Of a stretch of 64,000 bases of DNA, positions 4,841 to 59,200 are shown piece after piece. Where the stretch lies: positions 1 to 64,000 of the IMG/VR virus record IMGVR_UViG_3300032032_000003, one strand, 5' to 3'. The position numbers and the translations under genes are program-made. Numbering within the stretch: the stretch's first letter is position 1; the number at the start of each line of letters is the position of its first letter. The notes beneath the pieces were generated by a model, which was not told the DNA's origin, did no database searches, and saw only the letters and a program-made list of their open reading frames with translations. Origin of the DNA: a virus.

Positions 4841-5515
4841 ATGATTACAATGAAAACTATTTTAACATTAAAATATGGTGACAAATATGATGCAAATGCC
4901 GTCAATTCAATCTATGAACATACTGAAGGCAAGTTTAATTATGTATGTGTAACTGATGATCCAAAGGACTTGGATCCTAATATACAAGTTATTTATATGG
5001 ATAATGAACCCGACCCAGGGTGTATGGAGAAATTAAATCTATTTAAACATAATGATTTAGGAACCATACTATACCTAGACTTAGACGTTAGAATTCAGAA
5101 GCCAATTGATCATTTGTTTGATTTATACAACGGAACACCCTTAATAATATGGACGTGGTGGAAAGATAAAGGTATAAAACAAATGAACATCCATGATTTT
5201 CCGTATAGATCAGACTTTCCACTAAGCAATTTCAACTCAAGTGTAATGCTTTGGGAAGATCTAACACATATTTACGAATATTATAATAAGAAAAAGGATG
5301 AATATATAGTAAAGTATCCTAATGGAGATGATACGTTTTTATATCATGAAGGGTTTACATTTGAACACTTACCAGAACATGAAGTGTATTCATATCTATT
5401 TGCAGGAAGAAAATATAGACCTGAATACTCGATATGTATATTAAATGGGCTAACACACTGGCCGGAGATTGAAAAAGAATATGATGAATTTTGTTTGCAT
5501 CAAATGGGGCACTAA
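4841..5515 (+). CDS. DxD glycosyltransferase-like protein
   Basis: The 224-residue protein has an N-terminal strand-helix (LTLKYGDKYDANAVNSIYEHT), then VCVTDDPKDLDPNIQV, and a metal-binding-type DxD at residues 80-82 (YLDLDV), in the order of small GT-A/GT8-like transferases. It is the shortest member of a local family with the genes at 5481, 7972 and 8789, sharing 'KWG.KY...VN..Y', 'CfTD.PkgL' and 'fDLDvii'. It lacks the longer middle region of its paralogues. The donor and acceptor are unknown. Virion or host surface glycans, or modified DNA bases, are possible targets. Start choice is uncertain because the late promoter nearly abuts the ATG. Confidence 0.7.
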   Translation: MITMKTILTLKYGDKYDANAVNSIYEHTEGKFNYVCVTDDPKDLDPNIQVIYMDNEPDPGCMEKLNLFKHNDLGTILYLDLDVRIQKPIDHLFDLYNGTPLIIWTWWKDKGIKQMNIHDFPYRSDFPLSNFNSSVMLWEDLTHIYEYYNKKKDEYIVKYPNGDDTFLYHEGFTFEHLPEHEVYSYLFAGRKYRPEYSICILNGLTHWPEIEKEYDEFCLHQMGH

Positions 5516-6248
5516 ATACTCGCCCGAATATGTAAATAACCTGTATCGTATGGTGCAGGAAAACTACCACAAAGAGTTTACCTTTACATGTTTTACTGAC
5601 GAGCCGAAAGGTTTAAAATGTTCTACGGAAAAAATACCAGATATAGAACCGCTACATCCTAAGTATTGGTTTGGAAAAGAGAATTATTGTTGGGACAGAG
5701 CCAAGTTTCTTGTGTTTAACTCTCACGAATGGCTTGGATTTGTAGGGAAATGGACCTACTTTGACCTTGACGTAATAATACAAAACGACATAACCGACTT
5801 AGACGAACTCGCTTTAAAACCTAGAATTGTACATAGCACTTGGCAAGACCCTAGGCATAAACACGATAGAAAATTTATAGAAGTTCGTGGTACATACTTT
5901 AATTCAAGTATGATGTGTTGGAACATGGATCAATGTCAACATATATTTGATGATGCGTTAGTTGAAGAGCAACAAATTTTTAGAACGTTCTTTAAAGGGA
6001 CAGATAACTATCACTATTGGAGACAAAGAGAATTTTGGACTAACATACCTTACGAATGGTCGTACTCTTACAATAGAGGAATGCGTTATCCGGACGATTT
6101 AGAACGACATAAATATAGAGAAAGCTGTAAACTTTGTATATTCAATACGGACTTAACTCCGCATCCGATAGCAAAGGGACAGATTAAAATTGATGAATTA
6201 CAAGATGAGAAACTTTTGAGACTTTGGCATGGTAACACTAATAGCTAA
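5481..6248 (+). CDS. DxD glycosyltransferase-like protein
   Basis: From ATG 5481 the protein is 255 residues. An in-frame TTG at 5469 lies too close to the GGAG at 5463-5466 to be the start, and its paralogues also begin M-x-x-[IV]-V-C. Landmarks are KWGTKYSPEYVNNLY (residues 9-23), CFTDEPKGLKC (37-47) and FDLDVIIQND (94-103) with DxD at 95-97. The C-terminal part (FFKGTDNYHYW, SYSYNRGMRYPDD, LCIFNTD) is closely shared with the protein at 7972-8784, so the two are recent duplicates. The start overlaps the end of the upstream gene, suggesting translational coupling. Substrate unknown. Confidence 0.72.
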   Translation: MMNFVCIKWGTKYSPEYVNNLYRMVQENYHKEFTFTCFTDEPKGLKCSTEKIPDIEPLHPKYWFGKENYCWDRAKFLVFNSHEWLGFVGKWTYFDLDVIIQNDITDLDELALKPRIVHSTWQDPRHKHDRKFIEVRGTYFNSSMMCWNMDQCQHIFDDALVEEQQIFRTFFKGTDNYHYWRQREFWTNIPYEWSYSYNRGMRYPDDLERHKYRESCKLCIFNTDLTPHPIAKGQIKIDELQDEKLLRLWHGNTNS

Positions 6249-7767
6249 TCAGCTAGACAGCAATTATAGTCAACGACATATAAACGCTTTTTATACTCAG
6301 GCGAAGAAACTGATTATAGAACCCTTTGACTTCATTGTCTTTACCAACGATGATGAAATGAAGTTGTTAGAAACCACTAAGAAGAAAGAAGGTTATATAC
6401 AAGGCATAACTTTTCATGTTCCTAAGTATGGAAAAGACTGGTTAGAGATAGACATAATGCAACATACACAACCAGGAGACGTATCCTTATTTGTAACGCC
6501 TAATGTTATACTAAACAATCCTAAAGAATTCTTTAACTATAAGACTAAAGGTATAGATAAATTAATATTAGAAGATGGTAATTTCTGTTATGTTTGTAAT
6601 CGTAATGAACAAGTAGAAAAAATATTAACAAAATGGGATGACATGGAAGACGATATGACATTTCAAAATCATTCATTTACTGATGCCTTTTATAGTAATG
6701 AAGTTCCTGAGTTCTCTTTTATACAAAATACAAATCATAACTATCCAGAAAAGACTGAAGGCGATATAGTTGTATTACCTTATTGGTATGAGGACTTTAC
6801 AAAAGATCAGTTGACATTAGGATACAATAGGGAAACCGATTTATACCCTTATTTACCTGAAAGAGTTGAAATGGAATTATCCAACGGCAAGAAAAACCTA
6901 ACCAGAAGGTTAATAGAACAGAACTTTGACTTTGATTTTATAACAAGATCTAAATTTAAAAGGATTAAACTTATAGGTGAACCCATTACCAATCCAGAAT
7001 TAATTGAAATATGTCAATACTTAATGGCTGATTGGGGCATAGCTATTGATATGGAAACAGAAGCAAAAGAACATGATCTTATATGGTGGAATAATTTGGG
7101 TGTGTTGTTCTATAATAACTTTGTTTCTGAATGGAACGACAAGTTTGATGCGAATGCTAAAAATATTGGCAATATAACTATCCACATAAACACAGCGAAC
7201 CCAGACGAAGAAGTTTTAAAAAGGGCTGACGTATTAATAAAGCAAGGTTGTAGAGTGTTTTGGCATTATACACAGACACATTTATCTCAGGTAGATGATC
7301 TAAAGAAAGCTAAGGCATTATCTAAACAGTATAAATTTACTGGCTTCATATATAAAAATGAAATGAAAGAAGAAGTCAAACCTAAAAAGAAAAAAATTAA
7401 AAAGGAAATGCCTGATTATAGTCTTATAGATTTTCATACACTAAAAACAGTTCAACAAGACGACATATATAAAGAAAGAAAGATTGTTTTTAGTCCACAT
7501 GTTGAATGCGAAGGTAAAGTTAAAAATCAATTTTACTTAGATGCTAATGGAAATGTTTTCCCGTGTAAACATGTAGCATTAAACGTTGCAACAGCACACG
7601 ACTCTCCCGAACATAAAACAGATTTATTATATGATTGGGACAAGAATAATATTAGTAATAATAATTTAGAAACTATATTTACTAATGATTTTTATAAGGG
7701 GTACTTTAATAATTTATTAAAATTGAACCCACAAGTATTACATAATGAACAGGAAGGAATATGTTAA
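6229..7767 (+). CDS. Fusion of GT-like domain and degenerate radical SAM/SPASM-like domain
   Basis: The 512-residue protein seems to have two parts. Residues 1-200 resemble the neighbouring GT-like family (ANQLDSNYSQRHINAFY, FDFIVFTND) but lack a clear DxD. Residues ~230-510 resemble a radical SAM barrel: IKLIGEPITNPELIEICQYL (246-265) matches the usual 'GGEP.l.pel.ei..yl' segment, and YLDANGNVFPCKHVALN (436-452) plus SNNNLETIF (476-484) match SPASM-type ends. The CxxxCxxC cluster motif is absent, so it should not bind the SAM-cleaving cluster. Perhaps it is a carrier or partner protein. It overlaps both neighbours by 7-20 bases. Domain assignment is by eye. Confidence 0.55.
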   Translation: MVTLIANQLDSNYSQRHINAFYTQAKKLIIEPFDFIVFTNDDEMKLLETTKKKEGYIQGITFHVPKYGKDWLEIDIMQHTQPGDVSLFVTPNVILNNPKEFFNYKTKGIDKLILEDGNFCYVCNRNEQVEKILTKWDDMEDDMTFQNHSFTDAFYSNEVPEFSFIQNTNHNYPEKTEGDIVVLPYWYEDFTKDQLTLGYNRETDLYPYLPERVEMELSNGKKNLTRRLIEQNFDFDFITRSKFKRIKLIGEPITNPELIEICQYLMADWGIAIDMETEAKEHDLIWWNNLGVLFYNNFVSEWNDKFDANAKNIGNITIHINTANPDEEVLKRADVLIKQGCRVFWHYTQTHLSQVDDLKKAKALSKQYKFTGFIYKNEMKEEVKPKKKKIKKEMPDYSLIDFHTLKTVQQDDIYKERKIVFSPHVECEGKVKNQFYLDANGNVFPCKHVALNVATAHDSPEHKTDLLYDWDKNNISNNNLETIFTNDFYKGYFNNLLKLNPQVLHNEQEGIC

Positions 7768-7982
7768 AAATAAAAAATGGAATTATAATACAAGGTAGAT
7801 TTGATAATGCAGAAAATGGATTAGTCAAGTTAGTAAGAGAAGCTGCTTTTTCTACTATCATAATACACACAAGCATAAACAGTTACGAAGAAAAATGTCA
7901 GGCTATTGTTGATCAACTCGCAGGTGAAGGATTACAATACGCCAAAAAATATGTTATAGCAAGGTTATCCTATGAGAGTTAA
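7761..7982 (+). CDS. Small protein of unknown function in the glycosyltransferase cluster
   Basis: The 73-residue protein (MLKIKNGIIIQGRFDNAENGLVKLVREAAFSTIIIHTS...) starts after a strong ribosome site (AGGAAGGA at 7751-7758) and overlaps the upstream gene by 7 bases and the downstream one by 11. It looks like a small alpha/beta fold without recognised motifs or membrane segments. Tight coupling to the fusion gene before it and the transferase after it suggests it acts with them, but nothing in the sequence shows how. Confidence 0.6.
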   Translation: MLKIKNGIIIQGRFDNAENGLVKLVREAAFSTIIIHTSINSYEEKCQAIVDQLAGEGLQYAKKYVIARLSYES

Positions 7983-8784
7983 TATTGTATGTTCAAAATG
8001 GGGTAGTAAATACGGTCCTCATTTTGTAAATAGATTAAAAAATATGGCCAGAAGGCACACAGATCCTAAACACGATTTCCATTTCTACTGTTATACAGAT
8101 GATGCCAAGGGTTTCGATGATGATATAAAAGTAATTCCTTTTCCAGACATACCAAACATACACCCTAAGTATTGGTTTCAAAAAGACGACTTTAAATATG
8201 GTATGGCTAGATGTTGGGACAGGCCTAAGACAATGGTATTTAATACTCACAATTTTGCTGAGGATAAACCAACAGGCAGATTTATATTCTTCGATTTAGA
8301 TGTTATCATACAAAATGACATAGAGCCTTTGATTACTTACAATATGGAAAGGCCAACCAAGCTTAGATCTTGGTGGCAAGATCCTCGCCCAATGAAAACA
8401 AGACGATTTAAGTTATCACATGGAGCATACACAAATGGTAGCTGCCAAGTATGGAGTGACGATCAAGCAGAATGTATATGGCACGATGTATTAGAACATC
8501 AGGATAAAATTTGGTTTACATTTACAGACGGAACAGATAACTATCACTCATGGCGATGGGGTGATTGGGGTAAAAAATTATGGGATCATTTTCCTTCAGA
8601 CTATGCGTACTCGTATAACCGAGGCCGTAGTTGGGATGATGACGATTTGGAAACAAAAATTTATAGGGAAACACCTATCCTTTGTGTCTTTAATATAGAT
8701 CTACTACCACAACCTACACCTGATAGAGGGAAAGTTAAACAGAATGAGTTAGTTGATCCAAACTTACTGAAGCATTGGCAATAA
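7972..8784 (+). CDS. DxD glycosyltransferase-like protein
   Basis: The 270-residue protein begins MRVNIVCSKWGSKYGPHFVN and carries CYTDDAKGFDDDIKVI (residues 40-55), CWDRPKTMVFNTHNF (81-95) and FFDLDVIIQND (107-117) with the DxD at 108-110. The C-terminal region (FTDGTDNYHSWRWGDW, DYAYSYNRGRSW, LCVFNIDLLPQPTPDRG) parallels the 5481-6248 protein almost block for block. An AAGG ribosome site precedes the ATG. The conserved WxDPR and GTDNYHxW blocks look like acceptor or donor site elements private to this family. Confidence 0.72.
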   Translation: MRVNIVCSKWGSKYGPHFVNRLKNMARRHTDPKHDFHFYCYTDDAKGFDDDIKVIPFPDIPNIHPKYWFQKDDFKYGMARCWDRPKTMVFNTHNFAEDKPTGRFIFFDLDVIIQNDIEPLITYNMERPTKLRSWWQDPRPMKTRRFKLSHGAYTNGSCQVWSDDQAECIWHDVLEHQDKIWFTFTDGTDNYHSWRWGDWGKKLWDHFPSDYAYSYNRGRSWDDDDLETKIYRETPILCVFNIDLLPQPTPDRGKVKQNELVDPNLLKHWQ

Positions 8785-8788
8785 ATAT

Positions 8789-9478
8789 ATGCACATAGAA
8801 CATTTAAATATCTATACTGTTAAATGGGGAACGAAATATTCTTCACACCACGTTAATAAAATATTAGAGTCGTGTAAAGAACATTTAAGTTTTGACTTTA
8901 CCTTCCATTGTTTAACAGAAAATCCTAAAGGACTGGATAAAGAAGTCAATGTTATACCACTACCAAAAGATAACAAAATGGAAAAGTGGTGGAACAAGAT
9001 GTACTTGTTTGATGATAATGTTGTAAGGAAGAAAGGAGATAATTTATTCTTTGATTTAGATATAATTATCCAAAAGAATATAGATGATATTGTAAACTTT
9101 GATCCTGAAGATTGTTTGTGCTTTGGCCAAACACATTGGCACGATTTAGAAACAATGAAGGAAGAAACAGAACACGTTCCACATAGATTTACAGAGCTTA
9201 ATTCTAGTATATTAAGATGGAACGATAACTTAGATAAAGAGAACATAACTCTTTATTTTAAAACACACTTAGATAAAATCTTATGGTACTACAGGGGAAT
9301 AGATAATTTCTTTAGCCACAAAGGCGTGGCGAGAATTAAATACTTTCCTATAGGATGGTTTTACAGTTACAATCATGGGTACATATTTCCTCATGATGTA
9401 GAAACACAAGTCTACAGACAAATACCATACGTCTGTTTATTTGACTCAATGGGAAGAAAAGAAGATGTTAAATTTTAA
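8789..9478 (+). CDS. DxD glycosyltransferase-like protein
   Basis: The 229-residue protein is a fourth member of the local family: YTVKWGTKYSSHHVNKIL (residues 9-26), CLTENPKGLDKEVNVI (41-56) and FFDLDIIIQKN (88-98) with DxD at 89-91, followed by the shared YYRGIDNFFSHK and WFYSYNHGYIFPHD blocks. No Shine-Dalgarno is visible before the ATG and the preceding stop is five bases away, so coupling is likely. It is more diverged than the 5481/7972 pair. The target is unknown. Confidence 0.7.
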   Translation: MHIEHLNIYTVKWGTKYSSHHVNKILESCKEHLSFDFTFHCLTENPKGLDKEVNVIPLPKDNKMEKWWNKMYLFDDNVVRKKGDNLFFDLDIIIQKNIDDIVNFDPEDCLCFGQTHWHDLETMKEETEHVPHRFTELNSSILRWNDNLDKENITLYFKTHLDKILWYYRGIDNFFSHKGVARIKYFPIGWFYSYNHGYIFPHDVETQVYRQIPYVCLFDSMGRKEDVKF

Positions 9479-10133
9479 TTTTTTAAACAGCATGCAATAT
9501 TGGGGAGAGGGTTTAGCCAAAGTCGAGCACGAGATGAAACACAAGCACGACGACTTTAGGCAAGCTCTTAATCCTAACACTATGGAAGGAGCTATTTGGT
9601 TAGTTGAAGAACTAAAGAACAGTTTGGATAACTACTTAAAAGACGAGCAATTTAATATTCTTGTATTAAACAGCTGGTTAGGCGTCCCTTTAGTGCCGCT
9701 ACTATGTGAGAACTTGTCCGTGGGAGAATTGCACCTAGTTGACATAGATAACGAAGCTTTAGAGCTCTCTAAGGTGTTTAATAAGCATTATATTACAGAA
9801 GAATACATCAAAATAAATCACTGGAACTTAGACATTCCGTTCGCTTTTGATGAGTTAAATCAACTGAAAGTAGATATAGTAATTACTATGGGTGCCGAAC
9901 AGATGTATCCATTAAACGATCTAAGGACTGCAAACAAACATGCAATATTTGCTTGTCAATCTTCTAACGTTATAGAAGAGATGTATGGAATTAATTGTGT
10001 GGATAGTGAGAAAAAATTGATTGAAAATGTAGGCCTAAAAGATACGACCTACACGGGTAAAGTCAAACAATTTTATTATGATTGGAATGGAAAGGTTTAT
10101 TTCGATAGGTTTATGGCTATAGGTACTAAGTAA
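9465..10133 (+). CDS. SAM-dependent methyltransferase-like protein
   Basis: From ATG 9465 (after GAAGAAAAGAAG) the protein is 222 residues; an upstream in-frame TTG at 9441 is less likely. FNILVLNSWLGVPLVPLL followed by ELHLVDIDNEALELSKVFN looks like motif I and the acidic end of strand 2 of a Rossmann methyltransferase, though motif I (NSWLGVP) is atypical. DIVITMGAEQMY matches a motif IV position. It overlaps the previous transferase by 14 bases and ends 8 bases into the convergent HNH gene. It may methylate a sugar or another cluster product, which is inference. Confidence 0.5.
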   Translation: MLNFNFLNSMQYWGEGLAKVEHEMKHKHDDFRQALNPNTMEGAIWLVEELKNSLDNYLKDEQFNILVLNSWLGVPLVPLLCENLSVGELHLVDIDNEALELSKVFNKHYITEEYIKINHWNLDIPFAFDELNQLKVDIVITMGAEQMYPLNDLRTANKHAIFACQSSNVIEEMYGINCVDSEKKLIENVGLKDTTYTGKVKQFYYDWNGKVYFDRFMAIGTK

Positions 10134-16849: not shown

Positions 16850-19800
16850 TTAAACTTGTAATGCTATGGCTCTTAAATCCTTAAACTTAGGAACCTTAGT
16901 AGTATCTGTTGAAAGAGGCACAACCTTGACTGCAAAAGTCTTATATCCTGTATGTGTTACGTTTCCTATTGTAGATGTAACTGCTGCTGAGCTGCCGTCT
17001 CCTGTTATAGTAACCGTAGGAGCTGATGTATATCCTCTTCCTGGGTTAGTAATTATAACAGAGCCAATTGTTCCGCTGCTAATCTCACATTTTGCTGTTG
17101 CTCCAAAACCACCACCGCCAGATATTGTAGCTGTAGCTGTTGAATATCCACTTCCTGCTGTACCAACTGTTGCTGATATAACAGAACTTAATACATATTC
17201 AAACACATCACTTGATGCGTTTAGTCCTGCTGCGTTTGATCCACGTGCAGGGATTGAATAACTATATTCTGCGAACCCTTCTGTTTGTTCTGATGGTGCT
17301 TTGTTAGCTGTTAGTAATGTCCAATTTAAATCTTCTTGGAAGTTTCCAGGATCTGCTGCGTTTTGGAATTTACCATAAACACTAATGCTTCCTGTATTTG
17401 GAATCGCTGCTTCTAAATAAACTTGTAAGTCTTCTGCGTCCATACCTTCTTCTAATACAACACGTCTAGAAATATATCTAGATGCTGCTGAACCTCCTAC
17501 TCTACCATCTTCTCCTGTAATTGTATTGTTGATTTCGTTTTTAATACACAACAAGTCTGCTTGATCTATTTCAATAATTGGTGAAATGTTATCATTGAAT
17601 GTTGAGAATGTTATCTTGGCTCTTGCTGTGTTTGTAGAAGAATAGCTAGTTACCTCATTCGTTCTACTGTAAATTGTTTTCTCTGTTGCTAATGTATGTG
17701 TTGTTCCAAAGTCTACTTCTTGATAGACTGTTGAGTTAGCTGTTCCTGAGCCGGTGTCTGTTAATGCTAATTCACATTTAGCTGATGTTCCCTCTCCTGG
17801 TTGTAATATACCTAAGTTAGGTGCAATATCATTAACCACTTTGTTGGTAAAGCTACTTATTGTTGCATACCCATCAGCATTTCCTACAATATCTCCTACT
17901 GAAAATTGTCCGCTTTTAATAACTGCGTGTGCATAGTTATATAAGTTGTCCCAAAAGTCTACTCTGCCTTTATTAAGAACCAATGTTGCTGTTGCTTGTG
18001 TTGTTCCTGTAGCTATTGTTATTGTCGGTGCAATATTATAACCCGATCCTGGGTTTGTAACTGTTAATCCTGTTACTGCTCCACCTGAAATCACTGCTGT
18101 TAATGCCAGGCCTGTTCCACCTGTGCCTGTATTTGTAACTGTAACAGCAGGTGCTGAGGAATAACCTGTTCCGCCTGCTGTAATAGTAGGTGTAAATCCA
18201 ACTAGATTTTTACCTGGACTAAATTTCTTAGCTGCAAAAGACCAACTTGTATCTGTAAAGTTTAACCAATCAATAGGCTCAGGTATTAAGTGTCCTGAAT
18301 ATGCTTGATCCTTTTTAAACCTACATCTTCTTATTTTAAACATTAAGTCTTTATTCTGATGTGGACTCCAGGATCTATCGTTAGCTGAGCTAAACATCAT
18401 ACCTGCAGCAGGTTGTTTTGAAATTCTTGTTGTTGTTCCGTATTGGTTTTCGCCTAATTGTGCTATCCAACACTCATATCCTGTGTCGTCGTTCTCTGGT
18501 TTTGGAACAAAGCAATATTCTGTATTGTTTTTTAAGTAAACAGGATCTGGGAAACTAAATACCGTTGGAGTAAATGTTGTTGTTCCTCCTGAGGTTGATG
18601 AAACATTAATTGATGCTGCTGGTAAGTATCTTATTCCATTTGGAATAGTTCTAGGTCCAGGTATTCCATTAATAACTTCTCTAAGTTCCATTGTAACACC
18701 ATTGGTGCCTTTTGTTTTAAAGTAAATTTCTATGTCTGAAACAAATATACCGCCAGGTACTCCACCAACTGTAAATGTTTGTGCTAGTGGATCGATACCT
18801 CCATTCCACAATTCAAATTCAAATTCACCGAAGAACTCTAGTTCTCCATCTGTTAATCCTCCATTCCAAGTGGGGCCTACGGGCTCATTTGTAAGTGCTA
18901 GACAAGTGAAGTCTGGCATAACTTCAACGGGTACAAATACCGGTACCGGTGTGCCTGGAAGGAGCTGAGTAACTACAGTTTCTACTACCTGAGTAGCTCC
19001 TGGAGGGCCGGCTGTTCCATCTGTTCCTGCTACTCCAGGCAACCCTGTGTCTCCTGCAGGTCCAACTGGTCCTGGTGGACCAGGAGGCCAGTTAGCAACA
19101 TCTTCTATAAGTTGTTCAACAGATGATAATCCGGCTGCTACGGCTGCTTCTGTCTGGTTCACCCAATCTGTTAAGTCTGGTGCTTCTGCTGGTGTTCCAG
19201 CAGTACCTGCTGGTCCTGGTGGGCCTACCGGTCCTGTTTGTCCTACTGCTCCAGGTTGTCCTGTTGGTCCTGGTGCGCCTACGACGTTTGTAATTTCGTG
19301 TATAATAACAGGTGCTGGTGGAGGGGGCAACGGTGTGCCTGCTCCTATTGAAATATCAACACTTGTATCTGTTGTTACTCTGTCACCTGTTTGATATGTA
19401 GGTGTTACGTTTGCTGTTTTAAGAGCTAGTATTGTGTCTTGTGTTTTTTGTCTTAAGCCTGAGGATTCGTAATTAGTTGTTGAAGATGTTCTTGATAATG
19501 AATCATTGTTATTAGCATCGTCTGTTAATTTGAATACCTTAACCCCTGTTCTAAATTGTCCTGAAGGAATTAAAAATTGTCCAAAGCATGTGCCATTTGA
19601 ATCTGTTGTTATTGTTCCACCCAACGTTCCTGCTGAGTTTGTAACATGTGCTGATACATCTTCTCCATCAAAGAATGGATAGACTACTGTATTTGGTTTT
19701 AGTCTTATACAATTGAATACAATATTTGCTTCTCTCATAAATGGTGCAAAGGACACGTCTACCACACTTTCACCTAAACTCTGTGTCTGAGTTGAAGCGC

Positions 19801-22800
19801 TTATATCTATACCTACACCCTGTCTTGTCTGTGCTTGTGATGTTGTTGTGGTTGTAAATAGTGAATTATTACTTGTTCCTTGTCCACTACTATTTGATCC
19901 AAACGTACTTAATTCTTGTGTTACCGTTGATACAACATTGGCTGCTCCACTATTTTCCCAATCGCCCCACTGCGTTCCCCATGCGTTTGCCATGTTTTCC
20001 CAAGCATCATAGTTACCGTCAAAGTTTTTAGTAACCGCTGGTTGAACATCTGTTGCCACAAAGTTATCTACATTTGGTGTTAATGTCATATCTCCTGAAT
20101 AGTGGAATGTTAGTTCTTTTGCTAGGTTCTCTGTTTGAGAAGCCTCTCCTTGTGATCTAAATTCTACAATGTCATATGGTAATGAAATTGTTCTACCTGT
20201 TTGTGCTAATGTAGTGGTTGAATTAGCCGCTCCTATATCAGTAAATGTTCTTAATGATATATTCTCCATTGCGAAAAACGGCCTTGCATGTTTCTTAACC
20301 GGATCAACTGATATTTTATAGTCCGGATCTAATACTGCTCCTACATTGTGTCCTGTAAATGGATCTACTAAGATGCCATTTTTAAATCTGTCTGTACCTG
20401 CTGCATTTGTAATTGTTTGATCTTTTGCGTATGTTTCTAATAAGTTTAGTGAAGCGTAATACTCTAAGTTTTTAATACGAGTTTCTAACGTACTAATATC
20501 TTTCATTGTAAAACGTTTATATGCTACTTGATTTACTGTTGCGCCTAAGTCTGATCGTCCTGCTAACTTGGCTGCTACTGTACCTAAGCAAGGATAAGGT
20601 GGTAAGTTAATTGTAGCCAACGTCATACATTTCTCAGGCTCTATCGGTAGTATAGGATCGTCTGAATAAGCTCCCTCTACTTGTCTAATTTTACCATCGA
20701 AGTCACATACTACTCTTAATTTTTTACCTTGCCAATATGAGAAGTCTGTTGTAAATGTTTTAACAGGTACCGGGAATGTAACTCCGCCTCCTGGTCTATC
20801 AATTTCTTCTAACGCGTCTGGATTTACAGGAGCTGATCCTAATGTAGCATTTGGTGTTGCTGTGTCTGCCATCCTAGGACGGAAGTCAATAGTATTTCTT
20901 AAATCATAATCTCCTATTACGCTTGATCTGTAAATTGGAATGTCTTCTGTTCTTATTGTATTGGCTGCTGGTGTGGTAGTATCGTCTACTGGATAACTAT
21001 CTAAAATATTAAATGTTCCGCCTCCAGATGCTACTGTGTGTGTAAAGTATGAAAGTTTAACAACCACATATCTATTCGTTGCTAGATTTACTGTTGCCTG
21101 CGATGTTTTAAAAATCTTAGCATGGCCGTAGTAGTTATCTCTTTGTCCGTTATCAAATCTAAATTGGTTTGTAACTTCGTCTGCTGCCGCTACCGAGTAA
21201 GCAGATGAGTTTGCCCAAACTCCTTCAAGTTTATAACCATCTGAAACTCCTAAATTCATTTCACCTGTTGAGCCATTAGCATTTGAGTTTGTATCTACTT
21301 TGACATAGACACTTTGTACTAATGCTTTTGCTATAGGTGTTGTATCTGTTTTCAATACATTCACATAAACTCTAACTTTATCACTCTGTCCACCTGCTGT
21401 TGTTACTGTTGTTCCTAAATCAATCCTCATTGCTGTGGATGAAGAACACTTAACTGATGCGTTAGAGTTACTAGAGGTTAGGTCAATGTACTGTCCTGCT
21501 GTTCTATTATTTCCTGTTGTTAAATCAAAACCATCTTCTGCTATTGCTATAATATTGGCTGATTTAATTGTGTCTGTTAATTCTGTGTTTGATGTATCGT
21601 AAGGGAATGTTTCATCACCTGTTAATGTTAGGTCAACATAAGCCCCTGCTGCGTTTAACTGAACATCAAATTCTTTTGTGTATTGGTATGTGGTGTCGTA
21701 TGTTCCGCCTGCTGCAGCCTTTAATGTTTTAATATGATTGTAAGGCATGGCAAACAACATTTTATTTGCTGATGCTTCTTTAATTGTTGCCTTTGAATCT
21801 GTTAATACTGTATTTGCTATACCATCTGCCGATGAGTTTTCATATCTTATACCTTTAACTGATCCAAATTCACCACTAATTAAATGTATATCATACAAAT
21901 ATAGTTTATATGCTGCTGCTGTTGCTCCTGCTGTTCCACTTGAATGAACAACGTGTCGAGCCTTTGCCGATCCTATTTTTGTTCCTGCTGCTGATGCTGC
22001 TCCATTTTGTACGGTGTCATATAAATCTATTGATCCACCACCGTCTATATCCCAAAATCCAGATACATATGATATGTCAGTATAGTTACCAAAAGAAGTT
22101 GATATTGGCATACCATCTTTAGTTACTACCCCTTCAGGTTTTCTTATAACTACACGTTTGGTTGATCCTAATGTTCGTTTGAAACCGCCAATGTAAGATT
22201 TACCTGGTGCAATACCTAATACAAGTCCATCTCTATTTCCGCTTTTAGCTGCTGTATAAACACCACCATTAGTGTTAGCTGCGTTTTGTAAATGTTCTCT
22301 GACATCTACTGTCATTCCTGCTACTGTATAATTGCCTGATTCGTCGTAAGTTCTGTTTGCTAAAATTTCTCCAACACCTGAAAGTGGATTATCTTTAAGT
22401 TTATTTCTAATAACTCCACCATCTTGAATTCTTAAATACAGATACCAATCATCAGGTTTTGGTATGGATGGGTGGAAAGATCTTAAAGTAACCATCATAA
22501 GCATTCTATCCGCTCCAGGAGCGTTATAGTTATAAGACCCTTGTGCAGGATCTAGTAAACTTGTATCTGATGCCGATGTTTGGGATGCTTCATATAATTG
22601 AAAGCCAACTAATTTTTCATTATACTTAGACCATCTATCCATTAAGTTATGAATTCTTGTTGTTCTAATAAAGTGGCCTCTTGCATATATAATGCCAGGC
22701 TCTAAAATTATTTCATGTGTTTTACCATGGTATTTGGATTGTTCGTTTGTTGTTGTTCCTGTATGAACTAGAAAGGTATCTCCATTTCTTGAGGAATCTG

Positions 22801-23254
22801 TTGATGTTACTGTTAAGGTTTCACCTGTCGTAAAATGAGCGTAAGTAGTAGATGATGTATTATAATTAAAATATAATTGTTTTGTTACCGGTGCACCTGC
22901 TTCTGTTCCTTGTTCTGTATGCGCTATAACTGCTGTTAAACCAGAAGTGCCACCGGTTAGTGTGTCCCCTACATAGTTTGCTAATGTAGAATTATCAACA
23001 GCAACCGAGGAGGCGTCTGTGTCTTTAATTTTAACCCAATGTCTTTCTAGTATTTGTTCGGCACACCCGGTAACTACTGCGCCTTCTTGAATCATAAAAC
23101 CAAAACCTTTGTCTAACTGGTCTTGTAAAATTGATTGTAGCTGTGTAAGCTCTCTTGCTTGTACTGCAACACCAGGCTTAAACAGAACTCTATGAAAATT
23201 CTTATGATCGTTAAAGTCGTCGTAATATGGTGATGCGTTTAAATTTAATGCCAT
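16850..23254 (-). CDS. Giant DUF4815-type baseplate protein with collagen-like region
   Basis: The 2134-residue protein opens [44 protein letters not shown], the start of the DUF4815 family found in marine T4-like baseplates. About residues 1320-1430 (around 18990-19290) form two collagen-like Gly-X-Y stretches ([20 protein letters not shown] and [16 protein letters not shown]). Two later regions carry [15 protein letters not shown]-type beta repeats shared with gp8 and the gp7-position protein. [30 protein letters not shown] block is typical of the family. It follows gp8 by five bases, matching the distal wedge region that T4 genes 9-11 fill. Confidence 0.8.
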
Positions 23255-42081: not shown

Positions 42082-42224
42082 TGAAGATTCCAGACGAAGA
42101 GATATGGGAGTATGCCCATAGATTGAGACGCAATATTAAAAAGCCACAAGAGCTAAATGCGTTTGCTATAATTTTAATTTGTTGTTTTGTTGTTTATATA
42201 GCTTTCGATATGTTTGTTGATTAA
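42081..42224 (+). CDS. Small single-span membrane protein overlapping the tape-measure stop
   Basis: A 47-codon ORF starts within the upstream stop (TAATG). It encodes a charged N-terminus (MKIPDEEIWEYAHRLRRNIKKP) and one hydrophobic span (AFAIILICCFVVYIAFDMFV). It overlaps the end of the convergent radical SAM gene by 51 bases. Its coupling to the tape-measure-like gene suggests a tail or membrane role, but the overlap and short length leave open that it is not made. Confidence 0.5.
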   Translation: MKIPDEEIWEYAHRLRRNIKKPQELNAFAIILICCFVVYIAFDMFVD

Positions 42225-43664
42225 CTCATATCTATCAGGACCCATTTCAGTATAATTCATTCTTGCAATATCTTTCCAAGTAACATTAGGATCAACGAAA
42301 TAGTGATCAACAACAAACGGGTCTATATATTCTGTATGTAAAAATTCCTCTGACAACCATTTAAGAGCATCATACGTTGTCATGTTCCCACTATCCCAAG
42401 AAAGATATGCTCCACTTTTTATTAAGTCATAAAGTGATTGATACCATGGATAATTTCCTGTGTATATGCCTTTGTTCTCAGGATCAAATGGAACCTTTTT
42501 GTAACCATATTCGTCCCAAGCTTTATCCATTTTTGAATAGTGACTAAGTTCTGTAGGGAAAACATTTAAATCTTTTATCATAAGCACAGACATTTGATAA
42601 GGATTACCTTTCCAATAAGTATCAACCCATCGTTTAGTTTCCCGCAGCGTGTCTAATGTTTCGTGTGGTAAACCAGCAATCAACGATAAATGTCCTTTGT
42701 AATAACCAGCATGCTTATTAAAATATTCTTTTACCTCTATCAAGCCATCTTGTAAACGCCCTGTATTCATACCTTTGCCAATAGCTTTAGCTGAGGCATT
42801 ATTAAAAGATTCTACACCATAGAAGTGAGAACAAAATCCCATTGATATTAAATTGTCCCAATCCTTTTTTCTACTTGCTATTAAATCTGCTCTAATATAA
42901 CCTGTGAGTTTAGGTTCGAATGGCAATTTTTTCATTACATTAGCAAACTTCTCAATCTTCTTACTTGTATCATTAAATGTTTCGTCTAATACGATATATG
43001 TTTCTGTCCCCCACTTATCATAATTCTCTGATAACTCATCATATAAATTTTGTGCTGCTCTTGTATGATCTTCTGTTACTCCCAGGACAGGAAAAGAACA
43101 AAAGCCACATCTAAATTTACAACCACGAGCAAACTCTAATAACAATACTTCTCTATCTGTTATCCCATCACGTTCTTCATATCTAACAGTTAAGTCTGCC
43201 TTTGGATACGCTTGGTAATTATGATATGCATCTATAGTTTTGTCTGTATTAACGGGTTCTGGTCCGCCCTGAAAGTGTCTTAATAATTCTAGTATAGCAT
43301 ATTCACCATAACCAAAAATCTGCCAATCACAATTTAATGGCTTCATAGACATGTTTTGGCTTCCTGCTACTGTTGGTATATCAGGATACTGTGTTTTTAT
43401 GTATTCAATAAGTTTTAAAAGTGCAGGGGTTGCAATAGAGAAGGTAGAACTAAATCCTAAAAAGAGAGTGTCCTTTGTAATCCTATCATCAACTAAAATT
43501 TTAAGCTGTTCAAAAGTCCAAGCATGAATGTAATCTATGACTTCAATATCATATTCATGTTCTCTTAAAAACGAAGCTATTTTATGTGCGCCAGAAGATC
43601 TTCTCATACTAGGATCTGTACCCTGGTACGTTGTCAAAAGGCCGCCGAAAATTAAGCCGTGCAC
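42174..43664 (-). CDS. B12-binding-domain radical SAM protein
   Basis: The 496-residue protein has an N-terminal Rossmann-like B12-binding-type region (IFGGLLTTYQGTDPSMRRSSGAHKIASFLREHEYDIEVIDY, FLGFSSTF, VAGSQN) lacking the classic DxHxxG, then the radical SAM cluster motif CKFRCGFC (residues 182-189), VLDETFNDTSKKI, and GVESFNNASAKAIGKGMN (322-339), as in B12-dependent radical SAM enzymes. It likely cleaves SAM to methylate or rearrange an unknown substrate. It is preceded by the lysozyme gene. Substrate unknown. Confidence 0.82.
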   Translation of the reverse strand: MHGLIFGGLLTTYQGTDPSMRRSSGAHKIASFLREHEYDIEVIDYIHAWTFEQLKILVDDRITKDTLFLGFSSTFSIATPALLKLIEYIKTQYPDIPTVAGSQNMSMKPLNCDWQIFGYGEYAILELLRHFQGGPEPVNTDKTIDAYHNYQAYPKADLTVRYEERDGITDREVLLLEFARGCKFRCGFCSFPVLGVTEDHTRAAQNLYDELSENYDKWGTETYIVLDETFNDTSKKIEKFANVMKKLPFEPKLTGYIRADLIASRKKDWDNLISMGFCSHFYGVESFNNASAKAIGKGMNTGRLQDGLIEVKEYFNKHAGYYKGHLSLIAGLPHETLDTLRETKRWVDTYWKGNPYQMSVLMIKDLNVFPTELSHYSKMDKAWDEYGYKKVPFDPENKGIYTGNYPWYQSLYDLIKSGAYLSWDSGNMTTYDALKWLSEEFLHTEYIDPFVVDHYFVDPNVTWKDIARMNYTEMGPDRYELINKHIESYINNKTTN

Positions 43665-53807: not shown

Positions 53808-55229
53808 TCAAAACACTTTGATATCGTATTTTTGAGCAAACATTTTACCGTCTTGAACTGTATTTACAATTGGTTTACCTTTTATATTAAGGCTCGTATT
53901 TAGTAACATAGGGCAACTTGTTTGATCTTTCCATGCTACTAATAATTGATATAGGCCTGGATGTTGTTTTCTATTAACTGTTTGAACTCTTGAAGTACCA
54001 TCAACATGAACTATTGCAGGGTATTTCTCAGGCTCTTTGCATTTGACTGTATATTGCATATATGGAATTTCTTTAGTTGGCATTTCAAAATATTTGTGTG
54101 CTTCTTCTTCTAATATAACAGGAGCAAAAGGTCTAAATTTCTGTCTCCTTTTTATTTTATTTACTCTGTCCTTTATGTCTGTGCCTCGAGGGTCTGCTAA
54201 TAATGAACGGTTGCCTAATGCCCTTGGGCCAAACTCTGCTCTGCCGTTAGCTACTCCTACTATATTTCCTTTAAGTAATTCCTCTATTAATTCTTGTGCA
54301 GGATATGGACCTGGTATATTGTATCCTAAATAAGGTGTAAACTCTACGTGCTGGTGTGTATGTGCTAGAACAGCTCCTAATGATGATCCGGCATCTCCTG
54401 GGTTAGGCATTATCCATACATTATCATAATACTCTAATGCAATAGCATTTGCTACACAATTTAATGCACAGCCTCCTTGCAATACTAAATTATTTGAGAT
54501 GTCCCACTTTTTAGATATCTCTAATATTTTTCTAAATTCTTCTTCGTATATTTTTTGTGCTGCTGCTGCAAAATCAAAATACATTGTATTATGTGGATCG
54601 TCTTGATCCCACGCAAAATTTCTGCAACCTTTTTGTAGGTTTAATTGTAATAGTTTTTTCATGGGTTCATAATACTTGTCTGGATCTCCATACGCAGCCA
54701 TACCCATTAAAATATATTCGTCTTCGTTTGCTTTTAATTCACACCTGTCTGTAATGGCAGAATAAAACATTCCTAAAGAAGTGGGATAACGTGTGCTCCA
54801 TCGCTTACCTAGTGCACCACTCCATATACTTGAAGTCGTCCACTCTCCAATGGCATCTATTACTATAATATTAGAATTAATAAAAGGACTTGTAAACATA
54901 CCCGCTGCTGCATGTGACTGATGGTGTGTGTTGTATTTTACTGTCCAATAATCTAAACCATAAGATCTAAGTAATGCTTTAACATTATTCTTTTGCCATT
55001 TTTGTCCACTATATACACGTCTTGTATTTTTCCAAAAAGGACTTTCGTGCCAATATAATGCCTCGGGCTCACCATATTGTAATGCATCGTTTACTAATGC
55101 CCGGTTTAAATTCTTATCATTTTTAATACCACTATACCGTTCGGCATGTCCTGCAAACAATATTTGATCTTCTTCAATCACAGAAATTGCCGCGTCATGG
55201 TGGCCTGCTGATAATCCCCATCTAATCAT
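53808..55229 (-). CDS. Carbamoyltransferase (NodU/CmcH family)
   Basis: From ATG 55229 the protein is 473 residues; the longer frame to 55325 lies inside the upstream gene. It shows family landmarks: WGLSAGHHDAAISVIEED (residues 4-21), HHQSHAAAG (102-110) for metal/carbamoyl phosphate binding, LQGGCALNCVANA, FGPRALGNRSLLADPR and MLLNTSLNIKGKPIV. It should transfer a carbamoyl group to a hydroxyl of a sugar, natural product or modified base. It overlaps the upstream GT-like gene by 8 bases. Shorter than NodU (~560 residues), but both domains seem present. Confidence 0.9.
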   Translation of the reverse strand: MIRWGLSAGHHDAAISVIEEDQILFAGHAERYSGIKNDKNLNRALVNDALQYGEPEALYWHESPFWKNTRRVYSGQKWQKNNVKALLRSYGLDYWTVKYNTHHQSHAAAGMFTSPFINSNIIVIDAIGEWTTSSIWSGALGKRWSTRYPTSLGMFYSAITDRCELKANEDEYILMGMAAYGDPDKYYEPMKKLLQLNLQKGCRNFAWDQDDPHNTMYFDFAAAAQKIYEEEFRKILEISKKWDISNNLVLQGGCALNCVANAIALEYYDNVWIMPNPGDAGSSLGAVLAHTHQHVEFTPYLGYNIPGPYPAQELIEELLKGNIVGVANGRAEFGPRALGNRSLLADPRGTDIKDRVNKIKRRQKFRPFAPVILEEEAHKYFEMPTKEIPYMQYTVKCKEPEKYPAIVHVDGTSRVQTVNRKQHPGLYQLLVAWKDQTSCPMLLNTSLNIKGKPIVNTVQDGKMFAQKYDIKVF

Positions 55230-57945
55230 TTTTATAAGGATGCAAAGATAACAAGATATCTCTTTTTCTGTCTTTAAGTTGTTGGTGTTTGTTTTGGTGT
55301 AGGAAGTGAAACCTGTTAAATGCAAGTTTATGTCTTATTGAATTATACTTTTCATTTTTATCATCTGTTGATATTCCTTTCCAATTCTCTAGTTGATCTA
55401 TTATGCACTGGAGTCTTTGTTTTGGATCTTTAAAGGCATCATAAAATTCATCAAACATTTCTGGGAAAGTTTGATACCCTTGTTGTCTTAAATATCGAAG
55501 TGTGTATGGAAGGCCTACAATAATAAATGGGTGATAGTTCATTAAAGGTTTATATGTTTTTTCTGTAATAAACAGGTTCATTAATTGATTGGAATCGTTT
55601 TCATAAAAAATTGTTTCGTTGACTAGGGAAAAATATGATGATTCATATAATGTTTTGTCAAAATACCTATCATCTTGTTGTAGTTTTTCTGATGAAATAT
55701 CTAATTTTAACTGGCGGGGCTCTCTAAAATATTCATTTAAATGATCTCTCTGTGTTTTAGTATTAAATAAATCATTATTAATTTGATCTAAAGTCGACTT
55801 CCAATGCCTTTTGTATTGTGCTGCTCCTCCATCTTCTCCATAGAATCGTAATAAGAAGCTGATATAAGAGTTAGTTTTATCATAACCTAATCGATCTAAT
55901 TCTGATACAATCGCTAGTCTATGTTGTCTAGGTAAACCATTAAAACATAATAAGTCGCGGGTTTTATCTTCCGCTGTTGGAACACTATGTATTGTTTCAC
56001 GTTCATAGATAGAGTCTGGTTGAATAAACTCTCTTGCGTTGTCTATAGTAAACAATCCTCTTTCCAATGGATCTGTTCTTAATACATATTGTTGTCTATA
56101 TAAAAATTGAAAATAATCATAACCAATTGTTTTGGTAAATTCACTTTGTTGTCCGGCCGGATTATTGGCAATCCAATGATCATAATTCTTAGTAAAGTTT
56201 ATATCGCCATATATAAAATAAGAATATATTCCATTTAACTTTTCGGCTGTCATGGCCCCATTTAATTTTTCCATCCACCAATGTGAATCTAAATGGAATC
56301 CTTCGTGAGGGAATACAAAAACTATTTGCATCATTCTCTTTCTAGCTAGATCTTTTACTTTTTCCGGTATGTCTGCTATAAGGTTAGAAATGCCTTCTAA
56401 ATAAGCAATTTCGATAAAATAATAATTATGTAAAGGATGGTTTTTACCGTGTACATTTTCATTAAATTTGTTTATGTCCATCAACTTATGATTTAAATCT
56501 GCGTATTCATACCACCATTGCATGTTTGATCTTTGAGAAGCAGTAACATTTAAACCATCTCTAAAACAGTTTCCAGGAACATATGGCTGATCTTGTGCAA
56601 TAGGCCTACCTGATACAGGTCCTTGCTTGAGCTTGTCAAACCACAAGTAAAAAATATCAGTAGGATTGTGAAAAGATCTATCAACTATAAAAGGAGGAAC
56701 AATTTCCCCGAAACGATCTGGACTTGCAACCGCGTTGGACGGCATACCTATTTCCCATTGTCCTGATTTCCAATGAGGACGTCTAGGTTGTGGAGGATAA
56801 TCTTTAGCAAACTCTTCCATTGTGAAGTAATGCTCCCATGGCACTTGTATAGAATTTTGTTCTTTTGATTTAAATACCTCATCTATATTGTCTACTCTTT
56901 CCCAATTTTCTTTTATGACTTCACCTAAACGTTTTCTATTAGCCCATAGTCGTGGTGAGAGCTCATTATATTTGTCCTCTAACTCCTCATGGCTAAGTGC
57001 TGTTATTCTCTCCAATTGATTTGTTATATAGTCTATTCGTCTTTCATAGTCAGGGTGTGACATGGCTTGTAAAATATCTGGAAACATGTCTTCAAAAATA
57101 TCAAAGCCCATTTCTTTTAATTTTTTATAGAGATTTTGATCTCCTAATATTAAGAAAGGCCTTAAACCTATTATAGGTTTAAAAGTTTTTTCACTTAAGA
57201 ATATATCTGAATGAATACACGATTCTGTAACTACTGTAAGAAAATGTCTGCTCCAATTTTCAACATCACCTAACGTAGCAATATCATTACAGCTTTGTCC
57301 TACCCACTCTGACATTAATGGTTGGTCTTCTATTTCATGTTCTTCATCTAATATAATTGGATTTTTAAATTTGTAATCATTGTGTGGTTCCATGGCTGAG
57401 ATAATTCCAAAATTTTCTAAGCCTTGATCATGTATCTTATTTAAAAGTGTGACTCTATGATCATGTGGTTTTCTGTTGTAGCACAAAAAATGTTTACCAT
57501 TTTGTCCAACTGTTCCATCTGGTTTACGGGCTAACTTAGGAGGGTTTATCCATTTCGCCCTTGCATAACTTGCCCAATGATTGTCTATATACTTTAACCA
57601 ATAACTAAAATAATATCCTTTGTTTGTATTGCCTACATGATAAACTTTATCGAAATTATCTTGTATCAATTGGTGTGCGTCTTTTCTTTTATTAATGCAA
57701 TTTGTATTTTCCCAGTCTGGTCCTGAGTACACCGCTGCTTCAGTACATGTAGTTTCTGAAATAAACTTTTTTAATCCTTTTAAATCATCACCCAACCAGG
57801 TTGAGTTTATCAAACAAATGTTCCCCGGCAATCTATCTAAAAGATTTTGAACGATGCCTGTTTCCATTTTGCTTATAGATGTTGAAGCCTCTGGCCAGCC
57901 GGCTTGTGTTGGGTCGTCAAAACCAATTGTATAATATCTATTCAT
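55222..57945 (-). CDS. Tandem-domain GT-like protein (two copies of one module)
   Basis: The 907-residue protein contains the same module twice. Copy 1 has HFLCYNRKPHDHR (residues ~152-164) and TESCIHSDIFLSEKTFKPIIGLRPFLILGDQNLYKKLKEMGFDIF (240-284); copy 2 has LLCFNGLPRQHR and FITEKTYKPLMNYHPFIIVGLPYTLRYLRQQGYQTF. The EKT(F/Y)KP...PF(L/I)I block resembles the nucleotide-sugar site of GT10/exostosin-like transferases. The third local copy is the C-domain of the 49316-51268 fusion. It overlaps the radical SAM gene upstream and the carbamoyltransferase downstream by 8 bases each, so all are probably cotranslated. Confidence 0.7.
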   Translation of the reverse strand: MNRYYTIGFDDPTQAGWPEASTSISKMETGIVQNLLDRLPGNICLINSTWLGDDLKGLKKFISETTCTEAAVYSGPDWENTNCINKRKDAHQLIQDNFDKVYHVGNTNKGYYFSYWLKYIDNHWASYARAKWINPPKLARKPDGTVGQNGKHFLCYNRKPHDHRVTLLNKIHDQGLENFGIISAMEPHNDYKFKNPIILDEEHEIEDQPLMSEWVGQSCNDIATLGDVENWSRHFLTVVTESCIHSDIFLSEKTFKPIIGLRPFLILGDQNLYKKLKEMGFDIFEDMFPDILQAMSHPDYERRIDYITNQLERITALSHEELEDKYNELSPRLWANRKRLGEVIKENWERVDNIDEVFKSKEQNSIQVPWEHYFTMEEFAKDYPPQPRRPHWKSGQWEIGMPSNAVASPDRFGEIVPPFIVDRSFHNPTDIFYLWFDKLKQGPVSGRPIAQDQPYVPGNCFRDGLNVTASQRSNMQWWYEYADLNHKLMDINKFNENVHGKNHPLHNYYFIEIAYLEGISNLIADIPEKVKDLARKRMMQIVFVFPHEGFHLDSHWWMEKLNGAMTAEKLNGIYSYFIYGDINFTKNYDHWIANNPAGQQSEFTKTIGYDYFQFLYRQQYVLRTDPLERGLFTIDNAREFIQPDSIYERETIHSVPTAEDKTRDLLCFNGLPRQHRLAIVSELDRLGYDKTNSYISFLLRFYGEDGGAAQYKRHWKSTLDQINNDLFNTKTQRDHLNEYFREPRQLKLDISSEKLQQDDRYFDKTLYESSYFSLVNETIFYENDSNQLMNLFITEKTYKPLMNYHPFIIVGLPYTLRYLRQQGYQTFPEMFDEFYDAFKDPKQRLQCIIDQLENWKGISTDDKNEKYNSIRHKLAFNRFHFLHQNKHQQLKDRKRDILLSLHPYKND

Positions 57946-59200
57946 ATATAAATGGGTCCTGTTTTCTAATACGTTTTAAGTTCCAATCAGGGTCTATGCT
58001 TGCTATCTCTGGTAATTCTTCCTGCCAAGTTTGATCTCTTACTGCATCAATTCTTTCCATTTCTAAAATAAACCGTTCAACCATTTTAGGATTTTCTTTT
58101 TGTGAATTCATAAAATCTATAAAACCATTAATGTGTTGTATCAAAGTCTGTATTTTCCATGGTTGTTCGTATGTTTCTTTTAATTCTTTTTCCCACTCTC
58201 TCCATACAATTTCTATTTCTTTCTTTTTTCTCTCAGGTAAAATTCCAACGTTTAACCAAAAAGGAAAGTGAACTAGATTTATATTAAAATTAAATGGTTC
58301 ATCTATTAATCCTTGTCTTAACAATTCACGATGGAAGTCTGGTATGTGCATAGCGTTTTGTATGCTAACTGTAGCATTAATACCAAACTCTACTTTAGGT
58401 GTTTTTTCTTTCATTTCTAATCTGTTATTGACCCACTTCTCCCAATCTAAACCTGTACGAACAAACTCTCCTCGAGGGCCGTAGCCATCTAAACTTGCTG
58501 ACATTGTTACCCTTTTAAACTTACCCCATGAATCTAATATGTTTTGACTTTTATAAAAGAACTGACTTAAATTTGAATTATAAACTAAATGTACACTTGT
58601 TCTTCCCATTTCTATAAGTCTATTAATAATCCTATAATGTTCTTCCATCATTAAAGGTTCCCCACCAGCAAAATATATTTTTTCTACTATAGGAAAATAA
58701 GGCTCTATTTCCTCCCACAATTCAAAAACTCTTCCAGGTTCCGGAAGGTCAGGTGGTAAACTACCCCATATCTTTTTAGTATCTTTATACCAACCAGAGC
58801 TTAGTTGTGGGCCACAGCTACGACATGAGAAGTTACATATATTAGAAAAACGAAAGTCCCAATATGCTAAATCCATATCATCTAATGTTCCGTCTTCTTT
58901 TACATTGTCCCATTTTTTTAAATGAGGAGCAAAGTCTCTTGCTGAGGTATTTCTAAAAGATTCATTACCTGTGTCTTCTTCTTTAAAACAATTAACACAT
59001 TCAGGAGGTCTTTCCCCTGCTAACATCTGCCTTCTGATTCTACGCATAGGATCATCATTCCAAATCTCTTTCAAAGTATTGTTTTTTAGTGAACCTACTT
59101 GATGATCTATATTTCCAAGACAACAAGCATACACATCTTTATTAGGCCATGTATGTAAATGTATTACAGGTAATACGCACTTAGTATCTTTATCTGTCAT
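57938..59200 (-). CDS. Twitch-domain radical SAM protein
   Basis: The 420-residue protein has an N-terminal twitch-type part with Cys at 8, 26, 27, 68 and 71 (VYACCLG, PPECVNC), likely for an auxiliary Fe-S cluster, then the radical SAM motif CNFSCRSC (122-129), YFAGGEPLMMEEH and NATVSIQNAMHIPDF. The shared 'LkeIWNdd.mr.iR.qMLaGe' segment marks the twitch part of this phage family. It is one of at least five tandem paralogues (57938 to beyond 64000), overlapping its neighbours by 8-11 bases. It likely modifies a peptide or small molecule; substrate unknown. Confidence 0.85.
   Translation of the reverse strand: MTDKDTKCVLPVIHLHTWPNKDVYACCLGNIDHQVGSLKNNTLKEIWNDDPMRRIRRQMLAGERPPECVNCFKEEDTGNESFRNTSARDFAPHLKKWDNVKEDGTLDDMDLAYWDFRFSNICNFSCRSCGPQLSSGWYKDTKKIWGSLPPDLPEPGRVFELWEEIEPYFPIVEKIYFAGGEPLMMEEHYRIINRLIEMGRTSVHLVYNSNLSQFFYKSQNILDSWGKFKRVTMSASLDGYGPRGEFVRTGLDWEKWVNNRLEMKEKTPKVEFGINATVSIQNAMHIPDFHRELLRQGLIDEPFNFNINLVHFPFWLNVGILPERKKKEIEIVWREWEKELKETYEQPWKIQTLIQHINGFIDFMNSQKENPKMVERFILEMERIDAVRDQTWQEELPEIASIDPDWNLKRIRKQDPFIYE

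Follow-up and report, generated by a model that had tools for sequence, protein, structure and literature searches.

A phage fusion protein without the catalytic motifs of its glycosyltransferase-like and radical SAM-like halves, a probable helper of neighbouring glycosyltransferases

The 64,000-nucleotide stretch of marine viral DNA analysed here (the window; positions 1 to 64,000 of IMG/VR record IMGVR_UViG_3300032032_000003) encodes a 512-aa protein that joins a glycosyltransferase (GT)-like domain to a partial radical SAM barrel and a degenerate SPASM-like tail. As the cluster loop of the barrel and the DxD motif of the GT-like domain are both gone, both halves of the fusion appear, by motif, to be dead. 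The protein is probably a helper subunit and not an enzyme, because both folds lack their catalytic parts yet many dozens of related viral fragments keep the gene intact beside working-type sugar transferases, and we put the chances at about even that it is a double pseudoenzyme serving as a non-catalytic partner of the phage’s own glycosyltransferases. A first-pass annotation had described a GT-like protein joined to a radical SAM fold without its cluster motif, which profile homology and fold prediction confirm; that the GT half, judged by its motif, is dead as well is a point absent from that account.

The fusion gene and its relatives

The reading frame is complete, running from an ATG at 6229 to a TAA at 7765-7767, and begins with a GT-A/GT8-like domain, followed by a half-barrel of the radical SAM type (~211-384) and then by the SPASM-like tail, with the following features.

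6229..7767, + strand: the whole fusion, 512 aa, made up of a GT-A-like domain, a radical SAM half-barrel lacking the cluster loop, and a degenerate SPASM-like tail (ORF, homologues, dN/dS, AF2 model)
6229..6837, + strand: GT-A/GT8-like domain without DxD, residues 1-203 (structure match to GT8 3tzt, GlyE, glycogenin and UGGT)
6496..6504, + strand: T90-P91-N92, where neighbouring GTs carry D-L-D (column counts, invariant)
6859..7380, + strand: partial TIM barrel of radical SAM type, residues 211-384 (hhalign, AF2 model, structure matches)
6877..6903, + strand: short variable linker in place of the CxxxCxxC cluster loop, residues 217-225, about 20 residues missing (alignments, spacing counts)
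6976..6984, + strand: G250-E251-P252, putatively what is left of a GGEP/GDP motif (G in 31/40 members, E or D in 40/40, P in 34/40)
7441..7764, + strand: SPASM-like tail, residues 405-512 (Pfam SPASM below threshold; identity values)
7507..7509, + strand: C427, first SPASM Cys (40/40)
7564..7566, + strand: C446, in GNVFPC (37/40)
7741..7743, + strand: H505, opposite the first Cys of the SPASM CxxxCxxC in the alignment with sister lineages (38/39)
7762..7764, + strand: C512, the final residue, opposite the third Cys in the same alignment (39/39; its codon runs into the start codon of the 73-aa gene)

No CxxxCxxC occurs anywhere in the 512 residues, as the first-pass annotation had stated, and the GEP-like segment that it quoted, LIGEPITNPELIEI (about residues 248-261), and the SPASM-like segments DANGNVFPCKHVALN and NNLETIF (final 80 residues) are present. 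Library searches with the single protein are weak, Pfam SPASM (PF13186) scoring 16.9 bits against a cut-off of 21.5, and relatives were therefore needed to back the assignment. Three overlapping scans of IMG/VR returned relatives at 31, 76 and 74 loci, and 112 ORFs matched both halves of the fusion; because loci are shared between the scans, the safe count of homologues is the 53 distinct full-length sequences among these ORFs. The radical SAM cluster motif is absent from every one of the 53, which rules out a frameshift or truncation that conceals a motif in the window. Neither the window protein nor the form carried by L275 has a match among 50,697 phage records. A bacterial genome collection yielded one relative (L218), on a short contig in a Flavobacteriales metagenome bin that is probably a phage contig placed in a bacterial bin. 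In one contig (L031:6001-7480, also L087:7113-8592), the fusion gene is broken by a frameshift, either a sequencing error or a recent loss.

A radical SAM-type barrel without its cluster loop

Searching with a profile of residues 204-512 brought up L092-L094, which are intact phage radical SAM/SPASM proteins, at 22% identity. HMMER scores for the C-terminal-half profile against intact, CxxxCxxC-bearing phage radical SAM proteins are 54-71 bits (E values from 1e-15 down to 1e-20). Compared by hhalign with ten aligned members of the intact family, the profile matched at 98.6% (E 5e-16, 232 columns). The reverse search with the intact-family profile recovered the fusion in its own record (E 2.6e-8) and a homologue in 11/11 related records. 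These profile matches exceed chance and establish intact phage radical SAM/SPASM proteins as homologues of the C-terminal half. The fusion protein has no match to PF04055 (the L074 member reaches 16.6 bits, with a threshold of 29.5) or to the N_Twi_rSAM model (NF033640), and a PDB sequence search with the C-terminal profile gave none.

The alignment also indicates how the cluster was lost. Intact enzymes, as read off the alignment, place about 40 residues, C-x3-C-x2-C among them, between strand 1 and the conserved F-x-x-[DE]-[FY], against 17-25 (mostly 19) in the fusion family. This spacing, some 20 residues shorter than in intact relatives, points to deletion of the cluster loop and not to point mutation; the putative placement of strand 1 is backed by a strand at residues 212-216 of the model. 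Where the GGEP-type SAM-binding motif would lie, most members have GEP or GDP, with variation among relatives, and the alignment shows that the fusion protein has also lost two segments of the intact family, T-N-G and G-L-D-G.

An AF2 model built on 46 rows (pLDDT 73.7 for the fusion) agrees with this assignment, as its residues 208-382 find their best structural matches, at Z about 12, in NifB, PqqE and viperin. Because 9 of the 46 input rows are intact radical SAM enzymes, the barrel model is not fully independent. The order of its strands and helices matches that in a first run on 10 rows that held no radical SAM rows, a run (pLDDT 47) used solely for the order of elements. The partial TIM barrel with SPASM anticipated by the first-pass annotation is thus borne out for the barrel, which is predicted behind the GT-A/GT8 domain (Z about 12 and about 11, respectively), while the SPASM part is modelled at low confidence. 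Homologues that keep the cluster Cys, which it had proposed to look for, are the intact family matched by hhalign. An intact homologue at the operon position was looked for and not found in the loci examined, where no member has CxxxCxxC after strand 1 and the sole CX3CX2C is the SPASM one at the extreme C-terminus in the L275 and L273 lineages.

A GT-A-like domain without DxD

Residues 1-205 of the model match GT8/GT-A structures (3tzt, Z 11.3; GlyE, glycogenin and UGGT, about 10; glycogenin-2, Z 9.8), and the AF2 input alignment for the fusion held no GT rows. A PDB sequence search with the N-terminal profile gave chance-level matches only. Residues 1-203 have the fold of GT8/GT-A enzymes and lack the DxD metal-binding motif, which TPN replaces in 40/40 distinct members of the fusion family; GT1, GT2, GT3 and GT4 of the same operon all carry DLD. 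One profile alignment shifts the TPN register by one residue earlier, and there is no Asp in residues 86-96 either way.

The invariant TPN could be the mark of another, metal-independent catalytic site. Metal-independent GT-A enzymes without DxD exist, in GT14 and GT42. If the N-terminal domain were an active enzyme of this sort, with DxD swapped for TPN, the SPASM-like part would bind the acceptor only. The family alignment lends this some weight, since D116, G117 and N118 are invariant too, and together with T90-P91-N92 this exceeds the expectation for a relaxed site. Against it, DLD is retained by each of the four GT paralogues in the operon, and a sister clade described below does without this domain and has a DxD-bearing GT2 in its place, which implies that the C-terminal half is independent of the pseudo-GT domain. 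We consider an active N-terminal domain rather unlikely.

A SPASM-like tail with a remnant metal site

On the window protein, TIGR04085 scores 12.5 bits (cut-off 27), and a SPASM match at E<=1 is found in 41/46 aligned rows, of which 9 of the 46 are intact enzymes. The AF2 pLDDT is under 50 for residues 391-433 and mostly 55-70 for 431-470. With the tail modelled at such low confidence, its SPASM identity rests on sequence profiles. C427, C446, H505 and C512 would constitute a remnant SPASM metal site, and all four are present in 35/40 members of the window clade. The candidate site is incomplete in some members (C446 is Ser in 3/40 and H505 is Trp in one), and the conservation of C512 is confounded because its codon is part of the start of the next gene. 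The pairing of H505 and C512 with the sister cysteines is the gap-free reading of the last 13 residues. An assignment of C512 to the first Cys of the SPASM CxxxCxxC was dropped, as the gap-free alignment with L275 places it at the third.

The full Cys set for an auxiliary Fe-S cluster is absent in the window clade and complete in the L275 and L273 lineages. That these sister lineages keep it (C, FPC and ICKxKCGxC) though they have no SAM-cluster cysteines is what a redox-active Fe-S cluster, carrying out oxidation or reduction without S-adenosylmethionine, would lead one to expect. The window clade fits this poorly, as its ligands are reduced to C, C, H, C and are variable, and the operon has no conserved redox partner gene; we regard such redox chemistry as improbable.

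Purifying selection on the fusion gene

The fusion gene is under purifying selection in all three parts. Pairwise dN/dS against seven close relatives is 0.04-0.13 for the GT-like part and the barrel and 0.08-0.18 for the tail, and the tail is 73-93% identical where the remaining parts are 47-89% identical. For the four most distant relatives compared, the values are 73-81% for the tail and 47-59% for the other parts, so that conservation at long range is highest in the tail. The possibility of a decaying gene carried along in the operon draws on the progressive loss of motifs, on the frameshifted L031/L087 contig, and on the faster divergence of the fusion (about 50-70%, against 85-93% for GT3 and the methyltransferase-like protein at the same loci). 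It is highly improbable: the frame is open in 53 distinct full-length versions with dN/dS of 0.04-0.18, which rules out a pseudogene for the family as a whole, and the tail is better conserved than the other parts.

A conserved glycosyltransferase operon

The operon consists of GT1, GT2, the fusion gene, a gene for a 73-aa protein, GT3, GT4 and a methyltransferase-like gene, and adjoins tail-fibre genes.

4841..5515, + strand: GT1, GT8-like, DLD (phrog_1962, E 1.6e-10)
5481..6248, + strand: GT2, GT8-like, DLD; overlaps the start of the fusion gene and is fused to the fusion protein in the L273 clade (start codon picked from homologues)
7761..7982, + strand: 73-aa protein; ATG overlaps the last codon of the fusion (found in the window clade and the L275 clade)
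7972..8784, + strand: GT3, GT8-like paralogue of GT2, DLD (alignments)
8789..9478, + strand: GT4, GT8-like, DLD (phrog_1962, E 2e-9)
9465..10133, + strand: MT, class I methyltransferase-like (homologous, E 3e-8, to the protein whose gene adjoins live radical SAM/SPASM genes of other phages)

The seven-gene order is kept in 21 loci inspected, within the reach of each contig, and among 73 GT3 loci the fusion is present in 63/63 that have at least 1.5 kb upstream. The 73-aa protein is fast evolving, has no family match, and occurs only in clades with a separate GT2. MT had no library match above cut-off, and it is as a putative methyltransferase that we refer to it.

The first-pass annotation had suggested that the fusion protein may serve the active radical SAM enzymes elsewhere in the window, as a subunit that carries or recognises their substrate. 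Apart from the fusion, the window’s radical SAM genes match N_Twi_rSAM (NF033640), and twitch-type radical SAM genes co-occur with the fusion operon in 4/5 records checked; a methyltransferase-like relative also adjoins radical SAM genes in another module. These arrays sit elsewhere in the genome with a methyltransferase-like gene of their own, and the constant neighbours of the fusion, in every locus examined, are GTs and the methyltransferase-like gene, with GT2 as its fusion partner in a sister clade. The link to radical SAM enzymes is one of co-occurrence alone, and the proposal is not supported; we consider it quite improbable.

The array in the window comprises six N_Twi_rSAM genes from 57938 to 64000, continuing to about 65750 of the record, and is accompanied by a carbamoyltransferase gene (53808-55325) and the second methyltransferase-like gene. 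The ORF at 62863-63702 looks truncated merely because the window ends, and is 504 aa in the full record. A B12-binding-type radical SAM protein (42174-43664) lies apart from the other radical SAM genes; its best NCBIfam models, PhpK-type and ladderane-type, score about 63 bits, below cut-off.

Intact radical SAM/SPASM modules

The nearest intact counterparts are the L093-type radical SAM/SPASM proteins of phages (328 aa; PF04055 and PF13186), which resemble the fusion protein through homology along the barrel and SPASM part. Their loci, like the fusion operon, also hold GT-like genes and a related methyltransferase-like gene. They differ in that they keep CxxxCxxC, have no fused GT-A domain, and have more SPASM cysteines. 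Intact-type loci have a second radical SAM gene directly upstream and a GT-like gene in the locus (81/81), with the methyltransferase-like gene downstream in 75/76 loci with room for it. The live module (L093:423-4341, also in L100, L116, L145, L157 and L171) contains GT-like, radical SAM, radical SAM/SPASM, methyltransferase-like and hydroxylase-like genes. One 170-kb record (G001) carries the dead operon together with a live radical SAM/SPASM gene of the same family. The family phrog_21308, matched by L093:2099-3082 at positions 408-658 of 735, places an L093 relative behind a 400-residue N-terminal region and is possibly a live fusion of similar design.

Sister lineages and the order of loss

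Two sister lineages preserve other stages. Proteins of L274-L280 are 39-41% identical to the window protein and have the same fusion without the SAM cluster, and their tail retains all SPASM cysteines, ending in ICKLKCGACKNV. A single polypeptide of 735-907 aa combines GT2 with the C-terminal half of the fusion in L273 and in most of L281-L305, with a variable region in place of the pseudo-GT domain, a barrel cut, in our reading of the alignment, to about half, and a complete tail. L273:1411-3621, L284:5001-7205 and L302:5001-7721 are natural examples, in which a DxD-bearing GT2 is joined to the variable region, roughly half of the barrel and an entire SPASM tail. Profile comparison of the L273-type tail gave 90% (E 1.5e-6) against intact enzymes and 95% (E 2e-8) against the window family. 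In a GT3 tree, fused, separate and L275-type loci form three groups with moderate support.

We infer from these sequences that the SAM cluster was lost first and the SPASM site later and in part. It may be, as a tentative reading, that a SPASM metal module persisted after the radical SAM barrel it belonged to had decayed, and that gene fusion brought it into service as a metal-binding adaptor for phage glycosyltransferases. Equally tentatively, the auxiliary cluster site would in such a lineage be the conserved part, and the catalytic cluster the first to go.

A possible role for the fusion protein

The union with GT2 in one polypeptide in the sister clade ties the fusion protein to GT2 and not to distant radical SAM enzymes, and is the strongest pointer to a helper role for GT2 and its paralogues. 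Gene fusion and operon order suggest contact with GT2, although gene arrangement is no proof of it. In the helper role, S-adenosylmethionine chemistry would have been lost and the protein body retained as a scaffold. The protein could bind GT2, and perhaps GT3 or GT4, through its GT-A and barrel surfaces and stabilise these enzymes or position them on the acceptor, with Zn or an Fe-S cluster bound in a structural capacity by C427, C446, H505 and C512. The product might be a glycan on the virion fibre or the host envelope.

We came across no account of such radical SAM pseudoenzymes in the literature searched. Here a doubly dead protein is fixed in a GT operon with several stages of decay preserved, and so the order of loss can be read directly. 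GT2 and the fusion protein also offer a testable partner pair for the glycosyltransferase clusters, so far unexplained, that abundant marine phages carry.

Comparison with known systems

Glycosyltransferases of the GT8/GT-A type (GlyE, glycogenin, 3tzt) have a fold in common with residues 1-203, and the fusion differs from them in the missing DxD. GeoRSP_SPASM (TIGR04304), judged by its library name alone, is a SPASM module without a working radical SAM domain, and its model has no match to the fusion protein. The operon resembles the host recognition cluster of pelagimyophages, in the tail-fibre/VrlC region of T4-like marine phages, where, in the part of the published account available to us, tail fibres, GT8 genes and radical SAM cassettes are described and the fusion is not mentioned (PMC7029224). 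The window likewise encodes a VrlC-like protein of 2134 aa at 16850-23254. For the proposed role, the pairs EryCII/EryCIII and DesVIII/DesVII are precedents in which a GT is partnered by a redox-enzyme homologue that lacks the cofactor; EryCII is a P450 homologue without the haem cysteine that activates, and is needed by, the transferase EryCIII (PMC3391682). EryCII and DesVIII have an unrelated fold and no homology to the fusion protein. The likeness, which we propose by analogy, is that the fold of a cofactor enzyme, stripped of its metal ligand, may have become the partner of a glycosyltransferase.
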